From: Myxococcota bacterium
GTDB taxonomy: Bacteria; Myxococcota; B64-G9
Assembly (NCBI GenBank): GCA_022710975.1
Contig: JAKLGA010000012.1
Coordinates: 124,001 to 188,000 of the forward strand
Length of the DNA stretch: 64,000 nt
Direction of reading: 5' to 3'
Below the pieces are notes generated by a model. That model did no database searches and was not told the origin of the DNA. It saw nothing but the letters and a program-made list of their open reading frames with translations. Position 1 is the stretch's first letter. Every line of letters starts with the position of its first letter. This document shows, piece by piece, positions 7,844 to 14,932 of the stretch. Position numbers and translations under genes: made by a program.

Positions 7844-10324
7844 ATGCGCCCGCCCCGTCCGGCCCACCTGCTGCTGGTCGCCCTGCTGGGCGCGCTGCCG
7901 GTCGCCGGGCGCGGGGCCGAGCCCGCGCCCGAGCCGGGCGCGCCGCTCCACCAGGCGGTCCGGGCCTCCGGGCCGGTGGTCCTCGACGGCCGGCTCGACG
8001 AGCCCGCCTGGCAGGCCGCGCCAGCCCTGGATGCGTTCGTGCAGTCCTTCCCCAGGGCCGGCGCGCCGGCCAGCCTGCCGAGCGAGGTGCGGGTGGTGTT
8101 CGACGACCAGGCCCTGTACGTGGGCGCGCGCCTGCGGGACCCCGAGCCAGACGGCATCCTGGCCCGGGTGGCGCGGCGCGACCAGTGGGTCGAGTCGGAC
8201 AGTTTCCGCGTGGAGCTCGACTCCCGCCTGGATCGCCGCACGGCCGTGTGGTTCGAGGTGAACGCGGCCGGCACCCGCCGGGACGGGACCTTCCACGACG
8301 AGCGCCTGGAGAGCCTGGACTGGGACGGGGTGTGGGCCGCCGAGGTGGGCGTGGACGCGCAGGGCTGGGTGGCGGAGCTGCGCGTCCCGCTGCGCCTGCT
8401 GCGCTTCACGCCCGGCCAGGAGGTGCGTTTCGGGGCGCATTTCGTGCGCTACGTCTCGCGCCTGCACGAGTACTCCGGCTGGCCCCTCATCCCGCCCGCC
8501 AGCGGGCTGAAGGTGTCGCGCTTCGGGCTGCTGGCGGGCTTCGACCTCGCGCAGCGGCCGGCCCAGCTCGAGCTCGCGCCCTTCCTGGTGCTCCGCCACC
8601 GGCCCGGGGGCGGGGGGAGCGAACGGCCGCTGGACGTCGGCCTGGACGCGCGCACGGGGCTGGGCGGGCGCTTCACCCTGACGCTCGCGCTCAACCCGGA
8701 CTTCGGCCAGGTGGAGGCGGACCCGGCGGTGCTGAACCTGTCCACCTACGAGACCTTCTACCCCGAGAAGCGGCCCTTCTTCCTGGAGGACCGGTCCGTG
8801 TTCGAGCTGGCCACCACCAGCGGGGTGAACCCGCTCTTCTACACCCGCCGCATCGGCCGCGCGCCGCGCAGCCCCGACGAGGTGGGGGACGAGGCGCTGG
8901 TCGCCGAGCCGCCGGTGCCGGCCATCTACGCGGCCGCCAAGCTGGCCGGGCAGACCGAGGACGGCCTGAGCCTGGGCCTCATCCAGGCGGTCACCTCCGA
9001 GGAACAGGCGGTTTTCGAGCGGCCGGACGGGCGCCGGCTCACCCGGGTGGCCGAGCCGCTCTCGAGCTTCACCGTGGCCCGGCTGAAGACCGACTTCTGG
9101 GACCACTCCAGCGCGGGCCTGATGCTGCTCGGCCTCGCCACCCCCGAGGACGGCGCGGCGCTGAGCGGGGGGGTCGACACCCGGCTGGAGCTCGGCGGCC
9201 CGGACTACCACCTGCTGGCCAACGCGCTGTGGAGCTACCTGACGCCCGAGCGCGTGCCCTGGCACGACGACTTCACCCGGGCCGGCGTCGAGCGCGACGG
9301 GCCCCTCGGCTACGGCGGCGAGCTGGCGCTGAGCAAGGACGGCGGCGAGTACGTGACCGGGCAGGCCCGCGTCCGCTTCCGCTCGCGCTCGCTGGCGCTC
9401 AACGACCTCGGCTACCTGGACCGGCCGGACGTGATCGAGGCGGTGACCACGCTGCAGCACCGCCGGCTGCAGCCGCTGGGCGATCTCAGCCGCTACTCGC
9501 TCACCCTGAACTTCTGGCTGCGCCGCAACCAGGCCGGCCAGGCCCTGGGCCAGGGCTTCTGGGTGGACGCCTGGAGCCTGTGGAAGGACGCCTGGGGGCT
9601 GGGGGTGTGGTTCGGGGTGGACGCCCCGACCTGCGACGATCGCGAGACCCGCACCGCGGGCGAGGTCGTCTTCTGCCTGCACGAGCCCTGGATCGGCGGC
9701 GGCCTGTACGGCACCACCGACCCGGCGGCGCCGGTGGCCGCGAGCCTCGATCTCACGGCCTCCAACACCGAGCGCGGCTGGGGCCTGTCGAGCATGCTGG
9801 TGCTGGCCATCCACCCCTGGGAGCGGCTGCAGCTCTCGCTCGAGCCGACCTACCGGCGCTGGCGGGGGAGCCTGGTCTGGGTGGACACGCTGGCCTCGGC
9901 CGGCGGCGAGCGGCTGGTGTTCGCCGACCGCCACTCGGAGACCTGGGACGTCACCCTGCGCGGGAGCCTGACGCTGGCGCGCGACTTCACCTTCCAGCTC
10001 TACACCCAGGTCTACCTGGTCTCGGTCGACCACCGCGAGAAGCTCGCCGCCCCCCGGCCGAGCTCCGGCGCGCTGCTGGCCGAGGCCCTCGCGCCCGCCC
10101 TGGACGTGCCAGACGACTACGATCAGCGCTACTCTGCCTGGAACCTGAACGCGGTGCTGCGCTGGGAGTTCGCCCCGGGCTCGGTCGGCTTCCTGGTGTA
10201 CACCCTGGGGCTGGCCGCGGACGGGGAGCGGGCCGAGTTCCGCTTCGGCCGCTCCCTGGACGAGCTCGTCCAGGCGGCCGGGCAGCACGTGCTCATGCTC
10301 AAGCTGTCCTACCTGTTCGGCTAG
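7844..10324 (+). CDS. DUF5916 protein with CBM9-like N-terminal domain
   Basis: An 826-residue exported protein with a signal peptide at 1-25 (GALPVAGRGA). Residues 45-210 resemble the family 9 carbohydrate-binding fold (VVLDGRLDEPAWQAAP, then DQALYVGARLRDPEPDGI), which always precedes DUF5916. From about residue 230 to the end are alternating aromatic beta-strands, with the family landmark FYPEKRPFFLEDRSVFE near residues 305-321 and a C-terminal strand ending in Phe-Gly. This is consistent with an outer-membrane beta-barrel. Function in the family is unknown; it is frequent in Myxococcota and Bacteroidota. It starts at an ATG with GAGGTGAT upstream, 82 bp after the ECF operon, and could be a target or member of it. 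Confidence 0.75.
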   Translation: MRPPRPAHLLLVALLGALPVAGRGAEPAPEPGAPLHQAVRASGPVVLDGRLDEPAWQAAPALDAFVQSFPRAGAPASLPSEVRVVFDDQALYVGARLRDPEPDGILARVARRDQWVESDSFRVELDSRLDRRTAVWFEVNAAGTRRDGTFHDERLESLDWDGVWAAEVGVDAQGWVAELRVPLRLLRFTPGQEVRFGAHFVRYVSRLHEYSGWPLIPPASGLKVSRFGLLAGFDLAQRPAQLELAPFLVLRHRPGGGGSERPLDVGLDARTGLGGRFTLTLALNPDFGQVEADPAVLNLSTYETFYPEKRPFFLEDRSVFELATTSGVNPLFYTRRIGRAPRSPDEVGDEALVAEPPVPAIYAAAKLAGQTEDGLSLGLIQAVTSEEQAVFERPDGRRLTRVAEPLSSFTVARLKTDFWDHSSAGLMLLGLATPEDGAALSGGVDTRLELGGPDYHLLANALWSYLTPERVPWHDDFTRAGVERDGPLGYGGELALSKDGGEYVTGQARVRFRSRSLALNDLGYLDRPDVIEAVTTLQHRRLQPLGDLSRYSLTLNFWLRRNQAGQALGQGFWVDAWSLWKDAWGLGVWFGVDAPTCDDRETRTAGEVVFCLHEPWIGGGLYGTTDPAAPVAASLDLTASNTERGWGLSSMLVLAIHPWERLQLSLEPTYRRWRGSLVWVDTLASAGGERLVFADRHSETWDVTLRGSLTLARDFTFQLYTQVYLVSVDHREKLAAPRPSSGALLAEALAPALDVPDDYDQRYSAWNLNAVLRWEFAPGSVGFLVYTLGLAADGERAEFRFGRSLDELVQAAGQHVLMLKLSYLFG

Positions 10325-10383
10325 AGGAGTTTCTTGGGCCGCTTGCCTCGCCTGCGGGCCTGGGCCACAATACGGACGGTGCT

Positions 10384-10468
10384 GGAGGGATGGCCGAGCG
10401 GTCGATGGCGGCGGTCTTGAAAACCGTTGGCCCGCAAGGGCCCGGGGGTTCGAATCCCTCTCCCTCCG
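10384..10468 (+). tRNA. tRNA-Ser (anticodon UGA)
   Basis: An 85-nt class II tRNA. The acceptor GGAGGGA (10384-10390) pairs with TCCCTCC (10461-10467), G is the discriminator base, and CCA is not encoded. The D-arm TGGCCGAGCGGTC, the anticodon loop with TGA, a long variable arm with stem GCCC/GGGC and a GCAA tetraloop (10430-10441), and the T-loop GTTCGAATC all fit serine tRNA. Its 3' part from 10417 is the left boundary repeat of the integrative element, so the present 3' half came in with the element. Confidence 0.95.
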
Positions 10469-10469
10469 T
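10417..10469 (+). repeat. attL: 3' half of tRNA-Ser
   Basis: The left copy of the 53-bp direct repeat, forming the anticodon loop to the end of tRNA-Ser. It differs from the right copy at five positions, all in the variable arm (10430-10441); everything else is identical. Confidence 0.85.
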
Positions 10470-10619
10470 CTTGTCAACACGCGCGAATCCCCTTGCCTGG
10501 CGCGGCAGCCCGCCTGCCTGCCGCTTCGGGCAAGGTCGCTCGCGCCTACGCTTGCCAACACGCGCCGACGGCTTCCGTAGGTCACGCTCGGGTCGCATTC
10601 TGGGCCCCAGCTCGGCGGG

Positions 10620-11639
10620 CTACTCGGCCGCGGACTTGGCTGGCGTCCGACCTTGCGCGTGGTCGGCCTCCCTGGCGTCACCAGATGCCCCAGGAACCGC
10701 CCCGGCACCTGGGCCGCCCTCCTGGTCGGCCGGGGCATCCGCCGCACCTTCCGGCCGCGCCTCGCCAGCCCGGCCGCCTTCCAACACCCGCAGGCCGCCC
10801 GCCCGGCAGGGCTTGCCCGTCAGGTAGGCGCCGAGCCCCGCCGAGGCTGCTACCACGTCCGACGAAAGTGCATGCGTGTAGCGCGCGGCCATGGCCAGGG
10901 TCTTGTGCCCGAGCATCGCGGCGATCGCCGGCTGGCTCGCGCCGGCCGACGCCATGGCCGAGCCTGCGACGTGGCGCAGGTCGTGCACGCGCAACCGCGG
11001 GAGTTTCGCCGTCTCGCAGGCCGCGCGGAACTGCGGCAGGATGGTTGGCCTCACCTTGCCATGGTGCGGGAACACCAGGCCGGCGCCCTCCAGCTTCCGC
11101 CCCGCGGCCTCGGTCTCCCGGGCCCGCGCCTGGCGCCGTGCCTGTGCCTCACAGAGCACCCCAAGCGCGACATCGTTGAGCTGGACCTTTCGCGGCTCGC
11201 CGTTCTTCGAGCGCTCGGCTGGTAGCCGGATCACCCTGCGGTCCAGGTCCACCTCGGCCCAGCGCAGGCCCGCGGCCTCGGTGTAGCGCATGCCGGTCGC
11301 GACCAGCAGGGTCACGATCGGCCGGATGCCGTCGCCACAGGCCTTGAGTAGCCGGCGCACCTCATCCGGCTCAAGGGCCGCCTCGCGCGCGTCGGGTTCT
11401 GTCAGCAACCGCAGCCGGCGCGCGAGCGGATTCTGGTCCAGCTCGCCCCATTCGACCGCCAGGGACAGCATGCGCGCCAGGCAGCGCAGCTCCCGGTTGA
11501 CGGTCGCCGGCCCCGGCTTCCGCTTGCCGAACATCAAGCCGCCGCTCTGGCGCCTCGCCTTGTACGTCTCGACCTGCCCTGGTCCGACCTCGGCCAGCGT
11601 CAGCCGGCCAAAGTGACCCAGCAGATTCCGAACAAGACC
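10620..11639 (-). pseudogene. tyrosine recombinase (phage-type integrase), 5' end missing
   Basis: The catalytic domain of a tyrosine integrase is intact: the first Arg in TGMRYTEAAGLRW, the HDLRH box, the second His in MLGHKTL and the nucleophilic Tyr in AMAARYTHAL. A core-binding segment (HFGRLTLAEVGPGQVETYKA) precedes it. Upstream of about 11639 the frame stays open but turns into Arg/Pro-rich sequence unlike an integrase, and no ATG, GTG or TTG lies in frame between the end of the upstream gene (11752) and an internal ATG at 11534. The arm-type DNA-binding domain (usually 60-100 residues) is absent. The gene therefore looks truncated, or starts at a non-standard codon. Its place beside tRNA-Ser fits site-specific integration there. 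The C-terminal 65 residues are an unusual charged tail. Confidence 0.75.
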
Positions 11640-11751
11640 GCCGCCAAGCCCGCGGAACCCTAAGCCGCAAAGGTGTTTTCCCGAGGTCGCCGGACGGGCT
11701 GTGACCCGAACCGCGACCCGAGGGGCGCCAGCGCGCCGGGACTGAGCCTTC

Positions 11752-12024
11752 CTACTCGAACACCTTGGGGCAGGAGTACGTGAGGTCCTGATACCTGCCC
11801 GTGAGTGGATCGAAGTCCTTCGGCACGCAGGCCCAGCACCAGCGCGCGCCGGTCTCTTGGTTGTCAACGCAGGTGCACGTGTCGGATTTGCAGTCGTCGG
11901 GCAAAAAGCAATCCCAGCACAGTAGCTTCTTGTCCTCTCCCAACCCGCAACCCGGTTCGTCGGTGGACGCGCCGAGCAGGGCCAGGGCCAGCACAGCCAT
12001 AGCAAGGCGGATCGCGCTTCGCAT
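11752..12024 (-). CDS. small secreted Cys-rich protein, element cargo
   Basis: A 90-residue protein from the ATG at 12024 with a strong ribosome site (GGAGGAGGGCGACC). Residues 1-20 are a signal peptide (MAVLALALLGAS). The mature part of about 70 residues has nine Cys (for example LLCWDCF, DTCTC, WCWAC), pointing to a disulfide-rich extracytoplasmic domain. I do not recognise the family. It lies between the integrase remnant and the control region of the element and is read away from the regulator gene at 12465, so it is probably cargo with its own promoter. Confidence 0.6.
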   Translation of the reverse strand: MRSAIRLAMAVLALALLGASTDEPGCGLGEDKKLLCWDCFLPDDCKSDTCTCVDNQETGARWCWACVPKDFDPLTGRYQDLTYSCPKVFE

Positions 12025-12464
12025 GGTCGCCCTCCTCCCGAATGGCCCGAGACCGCCGGGCCATCATGTCCAGCCGCACCATGCGCCGCGAAACGAAAAA
12101 GGCCCGCAGGTGGCTCGCGGCGGCACTGGTCGGCGAGACTCAGGGCAACCCGAAATCCGCCTGCGGACCAACTTGGGTTGGCCGCAGGCCGCCGCGCACA
12201 CACGCCGCGCGTGCGCTCGGGTTGCCTTTTCTCCGGCGGGCCCTGGTCGGGACCGCCGGATGAGTCTCGCCAAGGCCAGGATAGCCGAAGTTGAGGGGCG
12301 CAGTAAACGGTCTGGAAGGCGACCGCCGGCGTCAACCGAGGCCGCGACCTGGCGGGCGCGGGGCGGGTGCGACCCACACGGCTTGGCGCTGTTTGACTAC
12401 CAGAGCCGACCGCCGACCCCGGACGCGAGGTTGAGCTTGGCGCAGGTGGCAGGAGGTGCCTGCC
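12025..12464. other. 440-bp divergent control region of the element
   Basis: No gene is visible. It separates the leftward cargo gene from the rightward regulator and holds a nested inverted-repeat structure at 12144-12226 (separate entry). Its base composition is less biased than the flanking coding DNA. Promoters for both directions, or an origin, would have to be here; no convincing -35/-10 pair was found. Confidence 0.5.
12144..12226. repeat. nested inverted repeats (possible operator or origin)
   Basis: The outer arms GGCAACCCGA (12144-12153) and TCGGGTTGCC (12217-12226) are a perfect 10-bp inverted repeat. Between them a second hairpin, CCTGCGG-A-CCAAC (12160-12172) and GTTGGCCGCAGG (12177-12188), pairs 12 bp with one bulge around a TTGG loop. 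Such a cruciform-like structure in the control region of a mobile element could be an origin or operator. Confidence 0.6.
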
Positions 12465-12869
12465 ATGTCGCGCGAACGAATCCCGACCCAAGCGACCGAA
12501 TCCCCGACCCTGCCGGAGCCCGAGCTGTGGTCACGCGCTGAGCTGGCGCGCCGGCTCGGCCTCCGACCCGCGACCCTGCGGGAGTGGTCCTGGCGCGCGC
12601 GCCAGGGGCTCCGGCTGCCCGAGGGCGCGCGCGAGTTGATGACCTTGGAGCGCCGTCCCGCCGGGCGGGTCATGTTCGCCCGGGTCGAGGTCGAGGCGCT
12701 GTGGGCCCGCCAGCGGGAGCGCGCCGCAGAGGATGCCGCGATCCGCTCGGCAGACGGGCGCGGGGAGGCCGCCGGCCTGGCGCGCGACCTGGCGACGCGG
12801 CTTCGGGTGCTCGGACAGCCGGCGCTCGCCGGCATGGCGGATGCCCTCGCGGGAGCACTGGTCGGTTGA
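12465..12869 (+). CDS. helix-turn-helix DNA-binding protein (AlpA/MerR-like, possible excisionase)
   Basis: A 134-residue protein. The ATG at 12465 lies eight bases after AGGAGG and is better supported than the GTG at 12456. Residues 18-75 read as a winged-helix DNA-binding domain of the excisionase/MerR kind: LWSRAELARRLGLRPATLRE is a helix-turn-helix, followed by a beta-wing (RRPAGRVMFARVEVEALWA). The C-terminal half is helical and Ala/Arg-rich. In integrative elements this gene class controls excision or replication genes, and it lies just upstream of the possible rep gene in the same direction. The assignment to a precise family is tentative. Confidence 0.6.
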   Translation: MSRERIPTQATESPTLPEPELWSRAELARRLGLRPATLREWSWRARQGLRLPEGARELMTLERRPAGRVMFARVEVEALWARQRERAAEDAAIRSADGRGEAAGLARDLATRLRVLGQPALAGMADALAGALVG

Positions 12870-12989
12870 GCTGAAACGAAAACGCCGCGCGGCCTTTGTG
12901 GGGGCATGCGCGCGGCACGAGGTCAACGATGCCAAACGTAGCATGGCGAAGGGCCATCTGCAAGCGCCTCGCGGCCAGGCGGTGACGCT

Positions 12990-13751
12990 GTGGGGCGCGA
13001 GCGAGGCCCGGCGGTCCACCCGCTCGCCAGGCCGACCCGCGACTGCGGGGCGTTGATTCGCGGCGAAGGTTGCGGCCGGCTTGACTGCACCTCGCCAGTC
13101 TGCCGCGCGCGTGTCGCCTGCCGGCGGGCTCGCGCCCTCCAGCGCGCATGGGAGCGCGCGGACCGGGAAACCGGCCGGCGCGTCCCGCTGTACGTGGTGA
13201 CGCTGACCCTGCCGGCCAACTGCCGCCAGCGTGTCGCCACGCCCGATGCCGCGCAGGCTCTCGCCCGGGCGGCGTGGCAGGTCGCGGCGGGTTGGTTGAG
13301 GGGGGCCTGTGGCATCCCACACGGCGCGGCGCTGGCAGGTCGCGCGGTGCTGCATCAACCGGACGGCGCACCTCATGTGATGGTTGTCGGCTCCGTCGGA
13401 GGGCGCGCCCTCCCGCGGCGGCTGCGCGGAAACCTGGGCGAGCTGCGGGCGCGATGGGGGAAGGTGCTGGCCGGCTTGCTCGGCTGGGCAGGCGAACCGG
13501 GCTCACTTGTTGTGCGGCCCGAGGTGGCGCGCAACCGCCTGCGGGCCGCGCGTTACTCACTCAGAAGTCAACCCGGCTGGAGTCGCGCGGCGACCCGGCC
13601 GGTGGCACACAGGGCCGCCGCCTATCTTGACAGGGGAACGATTCGCGCCCCGCAAGCCGACCTGGAGCCCCGCAATAAACCCGGGTTCATTCCTGCCGTG
13701 CTTAGAGACCTGTGGGCCGAGCTGAGTTTCCAAGAAAGGGGGATCCGATGA
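12990..13751 (+). CDS. possible replication initiator of the element
   Basis: A 253-residue protein of uncertain class. A Cys pair region (CGRLDCTSPVC) is followed by LYVVTLTLPA, similar to motif I of rolling-circle Rep proteins and IS91-type transposases, then APHVMVVGSVGG where a HUH motif (H-x-H) would be expected, and RAARYSLRSQ, where the catalytic Tyr helix would be. Only one His of the HUH pair is present, so the enzyme could be divergent or inactive. The start is uncertain: GTG at 12990, or TTG at 13053 just before the Cys region. The stop overlaps the next ATG (ATGA at 13748), showing coupling to the downstream ORFs. The alternative is an unknown element protein. Confidence 0.4.
   Translation: MGRERGPAVHPLARPTRDCGALIRGEGCGRLDCTSPVCRARVACRRARALQRAWERADRETGRRVPLYVVTLTLPANCRQRVATPDAAQALARAAWQVAAGWLRGACGIPHGAALAGRAVLHQPDGAPHVMVVGSVGGRALPRRLRGNLGELRARWGKVLAGLLGWAGEPGSLVVRPEVARNRLRAARYSLRSQPGWSRAATRPVAHRAAAYLDRGTIRAPQADLEPRNKPGFIPAVLRDLWAELSFQERGIR
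13673..13687. repeat. CAATAAACCCGGGTT, copy 1
   Basis: A 15-bp sequence repeated exactly at 14610-14624. Its core AACCCGGGTT is palindromic. This copy lies inside the 3' part of the putative rep gene. Confidence 0.6.
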
Positions 13752-13931
13752 GTGACCCGTTCGACGTTGGCGAGTTGCGGCGGCTTCTGGACGAAGTCGA
13801 GAGGGGCAGCGACGAGACGTGGGAAAAGCTGCGGCAGATCGTCGCAGACCCCGAGCCGTGGGAATGGCTGCGGCGGTTCGTCGCCAACTCCGAGACGTTC
13901 GAGCTGTCCGGCTTCGAGCCGGAGGGAGGTG
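13748..13931 (+). CDS. small acidic ORF of the element, without its own stop
   Basis: From the ATG at 13748 (ATGA overlap with the previous stop) the frame encodes a plausible acidic helical peptide of about 61 residues rich in Glu, Trp and Leu (LRRLLDEVERGSDETWEKL, PWEWLRRFV). After about 13931 the same frame stays open but becomes Gly/Arg-rich, while coding character passes to the ORF at 13935 in another frame. There is no stop until 14930. A lost stop codon or a frameshift joining it to the next ORF would explain this. The end given is where coding character changes. Function unknown. Confidence 0.4.
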
Positions 13932-13934
13932 GGC

Positions 13935-14150
13935 ATGCTGTTGCGAAGTCCAAAGGGCGAGGTGGTCGCGGTGAGGGTCACGACGGAGCACGCGGCGAGC
14001 TGCTACGGGCGGCCGGTGGTGGTCCTGCCGGACGGGACGGCGCTGGGGCTGGGCGATGTGCGGGGCTGGGCGATCGTCGAGGCGAGCGACGCGGAGCGCG
14101 CCGAGCTGGCCGCGGGCGGCTACGTGCGGCCGGCGGGTGGTGCGCCGTGA
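13935..14150 (+). CDS. small hypothetical protein of the element
   Basis: A 71-residue protein starting at an ATG preceded by GGAGGGAGGTGGGC. The sequence (MLLRSPKGEVVAVRV, RPVVVLPDGTALGLGDVRGW) looks like a small beta-rich fold of the kind found in phage and element accessory proteins; no family is recognised. It ends in a GTGA overlap with the next ORF, indicating translational coupling in the chain rep-ORF-ORF-ORF. Confidence 0.5.
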   Translation: MLLRSPKGEVVAVRVTTEHAASCYGRPVVVLPDGTALGLGDVRGWAIVEASDAERAELAAGGYVRPAGGAP

Positions 14151-14932
14151 GCCGGCCGGGTTGCGACCGTGGGGCGCCTGGGGCCGGCCGTGGCGCGTCC
14201 GCTGAGTCGGCCGGGCCCGAGGGGCGCACACTGTGCGGCCGGGTGCATCCTGCGGCTCCTGGCGCCCTCCGAGGGGGCGTCCAGGCAGACCCCGGCCAGG
14301 CACAGGCGGTGCTCGCGGTGCGCCTGCTGCGGGAGCTGGCGCGCGGCGGGTGCGCTCTCCCGTTGACGGCGGGCCTGCTGGCCGAGGTGCTGGGCACGGG
14401 GGAGGCCGAGGTACGCGGGGCGCTTGCGGCGCTGAGCGGGGCCGGGCTGGAGGTGCGCACGCGGCGCGAGCCGACCGGCGAGGTGTTCGCCGTCGAGGCG
14501 GCCGAGCTGCGATGTTGGTTGGGCGGGGGTTGTTCCGGCGCTGGTCTTGGACTCCACCTTCCCGCCCGGGAAAAACCACGAGACTCGCGCGCGTCGGCCG
14601 GTGGTGGCACAATAAACCCGGGTTTAGTCCGGGGCTCTTTGAAAACCGTTGCACCGAAAGGTGCCGGGGGTTCGAATCCCTCTCCCTCCGTTTTCCTGTC
14701 TGCGAAAGGCCTTGACCCGCGAGACGAAACTCAACCTCGCGGCCCTGGACAGGCCTGGTCCTCAGCCCTCGCCCTCAGCCGAGGTGCCAGGGGAGGAGGG
14801 ACACACCCTCGCGCATCCCCTTCACCGCGCCCCCGGTCACGAGCACGCCTTCCCGGTGGGGGTTGCCCGGCAGGGACCGCCACCACAGCAGCGAGCGCAG
14901 CATGTCGTCGGCCACGGTGGCGCCGGACTTGA
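14147..14932 (+). CDS. winged-helix-like protein running through attR
   Basis: A GTG at 14147 overlaps the preceding TGA. Residues 45-130 look like a DNA-binding winged helix (AVLAVRLLRELARGG, AGLLAEVLGTGEAEVRGALA, GLEVRTRREPTGEVFAVEA). After about residue 140 the frame runs across the right attachment site and into flanking DNA until TGA at 14930, so the last ~90 residues are not native to the gene. In the excised circle it would read through attP into element DNA beyond the integrase end instead. Likely a regulator of the element; the family is uncertain. Confidence 0.45.
   Translation: MSRPGCDRGAPGAGRGASAESAGPEGRTLCGRVHPAAPGALRGGVQADPGQAQAVLAVRLLRELARGGCALPLTAGLLAEVLGTGEAEVRGALAALSGAGLEVRTRREPTGEVFAVEAAELRCWLGGGCSGAGLGLHLPAREKPRDSRASAGGGTINPGLVRGSLKTVAPKGAGGSNPSPSVFLSAKGLDPRDETQPRGPGQAWSSALALSRGARGGGTHPRASPSPRPRSRARLPGGGCPAGTATTAASAACRRPRWRRT
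14610..14624. repeat. CAATAAACCCGGGTT, copy 2
   Basis: The second exact copy of the 15-bp repeat. Here it extends to a perfect 14-bp palindrome, TAAACCCGGGTTTA, 15 bp outside attR. This could be an accessory binding site for recombination or replication. Confidence 0.6.
14639..14691 (+). repeat. attR: displaced original 3' half of tRNA-Ser
   Basis: The right copy of the direct repeat, a tRNA fragment starting in the anticodon loop and ending at the discriminator base. No 5' half precedes it, so it is not a tRNA gene. Its variable arm is CACC-GAAA-GGTG (14652-14663) against GCCC-GCAA-GGGC in the intact gene. Confidence 0.85.

Follow-up and report, generated by a model that had tools for sequence, protein, structure and literature searches.

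Apparent replacement of the variable arm of a tRNA-Ser(UGA) gene by an integrated element in a Myxococcota genome

Introduction

When an element inserts into a tRNA gene and two versions of the tRNA 3′ half are found at its ends, which version belonged to the host and which arrived with the element? This question is raised by a locus in a draft genome of the phylum Myxococcota, where a 4.2-kb element separates an intact tRNA-Ser(UGA) gene from a displaced copy of its 3′ half, with a tyrosine integrase encoded beside the intact gene. An earlier note, made from the sequence alone, described the two copies as identical save for the variable arm. It proposed that the incoming attP had carried a different arm, which the host now uses, and that the displaced copy is the ancestral version. 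Here we examine these claims using the surrounding 64,000 nucleotides (the window), the remainder of the genome and 195 genomes from the same phylum.

Results

The window hosts a single tRNA gene according to ARAGORN, the tRNA-Ser(UGA) at positions 10383-10470 of the plus strand. This is the attL end of the element; it is also matched by the Rfam model RF00005 (55.9 bits) and recovered by the genome search. The displaced 3′ half, attR, is found at 14639-14693 on the same strand, where it extends from the anticodon-loop base T33 to just after the final CCG, and is the second match in the genome searches. With a repeat finder, 10417-10472 and 14639-14694 match at 89%, and a direct reading places the limits of the common block at T33 (10417 and 14639) and at the T that follows CCG, just past the discriminator base. 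The block consists of 13 identical bases (TTGAAAACCGTTG, 10417-10429 and 14639-14651, plus strand), a 13-base stretch with five differences and a further 28 identical bases (CCGGGGG...CTCCGT). Both approaches bear out the claim that the copies differ in the variable arm only, and the 41 bases outside the arm are the same in the two.

The arm in present use, at 10429-10442 of the plus strand, reads GGCCC-GCAA-GGGCC and forms the variable arm of the ARAGORN cloverleaf. The displaced and, judging by the relatives discussed below, probably ancestral arm reads GCACC-GAAA-GGTGC (14651-14664, plus strand). The earlier note had the differences right, but described a stem of four pairs where there are in fact five. 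The outermost G-C pair is shared by both copies, the second pair is G-C in the intact gene and C-G in the displaced copy, and the third is C-G in the former and A-T in the latter. Two stem pairs have thus been altered on both sides, and the loops, GCAA and GAAA, are both of the GNRA type, as the note had it. Four of the five arm differences therefore belong to two compensated pairs. When five random substitutions were simulated in the 14-nucleotide arm, all five pairs were Watson-Crick in only 0.6% of cases.

We infer the following history from this arrangement. The element would have brought an attP carrying the 3′ half of a tRNA-Ser(UGA) from another host, and its tyrosine integrase would have exchanged strands in or beside the anticodon loop, in the 13-bp block TTGAAAACCGTTG. 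Joining of the host 5′ half to the element 3′ half would then have regenerated an intact gene at attL, with the original 3′ half of the host left at the opposite end of the element, as attR. As the variable arm falls 3′ of this exchange point, the host would have received the GGCCC-GCAA-GGGCC arm of the element, which would have replaced its own GCACC-GAAA-GGTGC. The present gene is then a probable mosaic, of host origin as far as the anticodon loop and element-borne in its 3′ half. We consider it quite likely that the intact gene now has the arm borne by the element, and that the displaced copy keeps that of the host.

The position of the exchange is central to this argument. Survival of the tRNA requires only that sequence 3′ of the exchange be preserved, and the exchange region is therefore marked by the point where the common block starts. 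Since the block begins at T33, the exchange most likely occurred 5′ of the arm, the 13-bp left block is the most likely site, and the arm very probably falls inside the exchanged segment. A block that starts at the anticodon loop, as at T33 here, characterizes the anticodon-loop attachment class, and is likewise found in the genomes G114 and G115 of the same phylum, where elements with related integrases reside at tRNA-Met genes and the displaced copies start at the anticodon loop. The window integrase groups with this tRNA-Met set in a phylogenetic tree (support 0.84, on long branches). The displaced tRNA-Ser(UGA) copies in two further genomes, G007 and G024, begin at the anticodon loop or slightly ahead of it.

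Had strands been exchanged 3′ of the arm, in the T loop or T stem, the assignment would be reversed: the intact arm would be the host's own and the displaced arm that of the element. The 28 identical bases past the arm offer enough room for such a core site. Exchange at the T loop is common, and in the genome G081 a more distantly related integrase acts in this way at a tRNA-Gly. However, the T loop is where the block of this tRNA-Gly element begins, and nothing tRNA-like precedes it. An integrase acting at the T loop has no need of an upstream stretch of 13 identical bases followed by an arm with perfect pairing, and the window integrase clusters with users of the anticodon loop. Furthermore, the arms of the family resemble the displaced version, not the intact one. 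We therefore regard an exchange 3′ of the arm as unlikely, and retain an exchange at the anticodon loop as the preferred reading.

The comparison with the family covers six genera, all other than the genus of the window, with arms of comparable length. For five of the six relatives the displaced arm is nearer than the intact one. The nearest is that of G003, GTACC-GAAA-GGTAC, with two differences to the displaced copy versus five to the intact one; the exception is G001, with an arm that is slightly nearer to the intact copy. The arms of these genera vary widely, and the comparison with them suggests that the displaced arm is the ancestral one. Across the phylum, about 1% of species pairs within genera differ at five or more arm bases, whereas differences of this size are the norm between genera of this family. 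For this reason the two arms of the window look like the arms of two genera.

This bears on a further possibility, that the element arrived with an arm identical to that of the host and the intact arm was later changed in place by compensatory substitutions. Paired substitutions do alter such arms quickly, and tRNA-Ser(GGA) arms, for which no displaced copies were seen, are equally variable. Yet the displaced copy, which is not under selection as a tRNA and should be free to drift, shows 41 unchanged bases outside the arm and an arm that is still perfectly paired. This identity implies that the displaced copy is young, and that a later change in situ is unlikely. The probability of the observed pattern under this scenario is about 2e-9 if drift and arm change proceed at equal rates, and 0.04 if drift runs at one fifth of the rate of the arm. 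Together with the rarity of five arm differences within genera, these values make a change in place very unlikely.

A misassembly, or a join between two strains, might also have set unrelated tRNA ends around the element, given that the genome is a draft. We find this scarcely credible, as both copies, the integrase and unbroken flanks are contained in a single 269-kb contig (C4), arranged as is usual for an integrated element.

The replacement of the host arm by that of the element thus remains our preferred reading, and its polarity is backed by three independent lines of evidence. The proposal that the incoming attP carried a different arm gains support from the T33 block start and the related integrases, and the proposal that the displaced copy is ancestral gains support from the five closer relatives and the unmutated bases outside the arm, although neither amounts to proof. 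In several relatives the tRNA-Ser(UGA) gene adjoins a Ser(GCT)-Arg-Ser(CGA)-Ser(GGA) cluster. In the window genome this cluster is on a different contig from tRNA-Ser(UGA), and as a consequence flanking genes are of no use for locating the empty site. The other genera of the family host no such element at tRNA-Ser(UGA), apart from G007, which has an island of its own.

The regenerated tRNA is predicted to be functional. The intact gene and a pre-insertion gene (attB) reconstructed from both flanks are each called as a normal tRNA-Ser(UGA) by ARAGORN, so the regenerated tRNA differs from the displaced copy and yet folds as a tRNA. A search of the 7.1-Mb, 29-contig draft genome found no second UGA gene. 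The mosaic gene therefore probably serves every UCA codon. The seryl-tRNA synthetase (SerRS) recognises the long variable arm mainly via its shape and orientation. The tRNA with the exchanged arm should remain a normal substrate for this enzyme, because stem pairing and a GNRA-type loop are kept in both arms. An interchangeable arm sequence fits recognition by shape and orientation.

Two further observations concern the folding and annotation of these copies. An energy-only fold of the new arm allows an alternative pairing with the D stem, but this is a prediction for unmodified RNA, to which we give no weight. The minus strands of both copies match the Rfam family Plastid-psbl-rps4 below the gathering score, and we reject this match, as it looks like the antisense of a tRNA-Ser.

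The element itself has the features of a tDNA island, with a regenerated tRNA at one end, a displaced fragment at the other and a tyrosine integrase inside. ARAGORN finds no tRNA gene within the element. The integrase (10620-11700, minus strand; PF00589, 3.5e-27; phrog_1, 5.6e-51) adjoins and faces the intact tRNA, and the catalytic R, HxxR and Y motifs are visible. The reading frame (10620-11750) is apparently short at the N terminus, where the start codon and the arm-binding domain are uncertain.

Next to the integrase is a 90-amino-acid, cysteine-rich ORF (11752-12024, minus strand) that has a signal-peptide-like start and is without a family match. It is followed by a 137-amino-acid helix-turn-helix protein (12456-12869, plus strand) with matches to phrog_66 and phrog_597 at about 1e-6, a candidate excisionase or regulator. 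A 253-amino-acid protein rich in cysteine and histidine (12990-13751, plus strand) matches the IS91 family weakly (E=0.013). Its structure model is of low confidence and has no significant fold match. A single relative was found, with 39% identity, in an integrase-bearing element of the family member G002. That the protein is a rolling-circle Rep of the HUH type, such as an integrated rolling-circle plasmid would encode, is a guess, for which the IS91 match is the strongest evidence. Finally, two inverted copies of a 27-bp sequence containing a palindrome (AATAAACCCGGGTTT; AAACCCGGGTTT) are located at 13665-13691 and 14611-14637 (the latter on the plus strand), the second directly left of the displaced tRNA copy. 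These may be binding sites for an element protein, one of them at the element end.

Searches of viral contigs, genome contigs and the 195 phylum genomes recovered no close relative of the whole element, and in the viral and genome contigs the integrase has remote relatives only. The searches revealed neither a free attP nor another copy of the element, and the element of G002 shares only the Rep-like protein. Neither version of the 3′ half has an exact match in the viral contigs. With a looser pattern three viral contigs were retrieved, two of which carry whole phage tRNA genes. In the third (L122, IMGVR_UViG_3300047494_000105) the contig ends with a tRNA-Ser(UGA) 3′ half, at 73-125, that starts at the anticodon loop and adjoins prophage tail-like genes. 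This is probably an attachment site, and its arm is unrelated to those of the window.

Related integrases are also found beside other tRNA genes. The genome of the window encodes a second one beside a tRNA-Met (G000:C2:82412-83176; L062), for which no displaced tRNA-Met copy was found within about 39 kb. Another related integrase is located beside a tRNA-Arg(ACG) directly after tRNA-Ser(UGA) and tRNA-Ser(GCT) (L077 in the genome G065, 2042-2375, and L054), with no displaced copy found in 39 kb.

Discussion

The locus described in this work clearly exemplifies a known mechanism and does not call for a new one. The mechanism itself has been published, as has one divergent but foldable tRNA half borne by a phage, that of Boilgate. 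The new aspects are that the part apparently exchanged is the variable arm of a class II tRNA, and that the differences are paired.

Anticodon-centred sites account for 2083 of the 3919 tDNA islands in one survey (PMC4383910). The window locus resembles the Islander 'A' site class, in which the integrase is located by the regenerated tRNA, a 3′ fragment marks the far end and the exchange is centred on the anticodon (PMC4383910). Nothing essential differs from this class, although the regenerated and displaced copies of the window differ in sequence. The elements at tRNA-Met in G114 and G115 share the arrangement, a related integrase and a block that runs from the anticodon loop. Unlike the window, both of their copies are identical, a different tRNA is targeted and the identity between the integrases is only about 35%.

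A parallel in sequence terms is the mycobacteriophage Boilgate, which integrates into a tRNA-Lys(UUU) at attB-4 with a 43-bp common core containing five differences, none of which blocks folding (PMC10865867). As proposed for the window, a tRNA 3′ half on attP with five differences from the host still allows a functional tRNA at attL (PMC10865867). However, Boilgate is an isolated phage for which integration was tested, and its target is a class I tRNA, which lacks a long variable arm (PMC10865867). The window hosts a small element in a class II tRNA, where four of the five differences form two compensated pairs. In phages with tRNA-dependent lysogeny, such as Fionnbharth, the integrase also acts within an essential single-copy tRNA gene (PMC10865867). 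The tRNA is not restored by these phages, which supply a complete substitute gene (PMC10865867), whereas the window tRNA is rebuilt. We reject tRNA-dependent lysogeny for the window, both for this reason and because the element itself contains no tRNA gene.

The locus has some implications for the study of tRNA evolution. A tRNA required to read UCA codons has apparently changed its variable arm in one step, with pairing kept, and the old version is still legible a few kilobases away. This illustrates that compensated changes between compared tRNA genes need not represent two successive mutations in one lineage, and that a displaced fragment can preserve the earlier sequence of a tRNA.

The example raises the possibility that elements carry tRNA 3′ halves between lineages, and so cause part of the fast change of Ser(UGA) arms in this family, in place of compensatory mutation step by step. 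If this were true, displaced copies would be fossils of earlier arms and the window locus a single such event. We find this idea doubtful. Among the 195 phylum genomes, three tRNA-Ser(UGA) genes have displaced copies, and the arms differ in the window case only. The identical arms of the other two islands indicate that arm replacement is not the rule. No displaced copies of Ser(CGA) or Ser(GGA) were found in 117 genomes. The mean number of arm differences in the family is 1.5 for Ser(CGA), which is nearly constant, 5.6 for Ser(UGA) and 7.1 for Ser(GGA). Islands are not favoured as the main cause of rapid arm change, as the Ser(GGA) arms are equally variable and no islands were seen there.

The other two islands have features of their own. 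In the family member G007 (L038, G007:C417:13000-24285, at about 9830-9890; L008, G007:C97), the displaced copy of tRNA-Ser(UGA) has stayed next to the Ser/Arg tRNA cluster and has the same arm as the intact gene. In G024 (L043, G024:C5:5000-24000), the tRNA-Ser(UGA) gene at 9310-9397 is followed 1.6 kb downstream by a displaced 3′ half at 10975-11060, with no integrase in between. The 3′ flank of this tRNA recurs almost identically after both copies, as if by repeated insertion or duplication.
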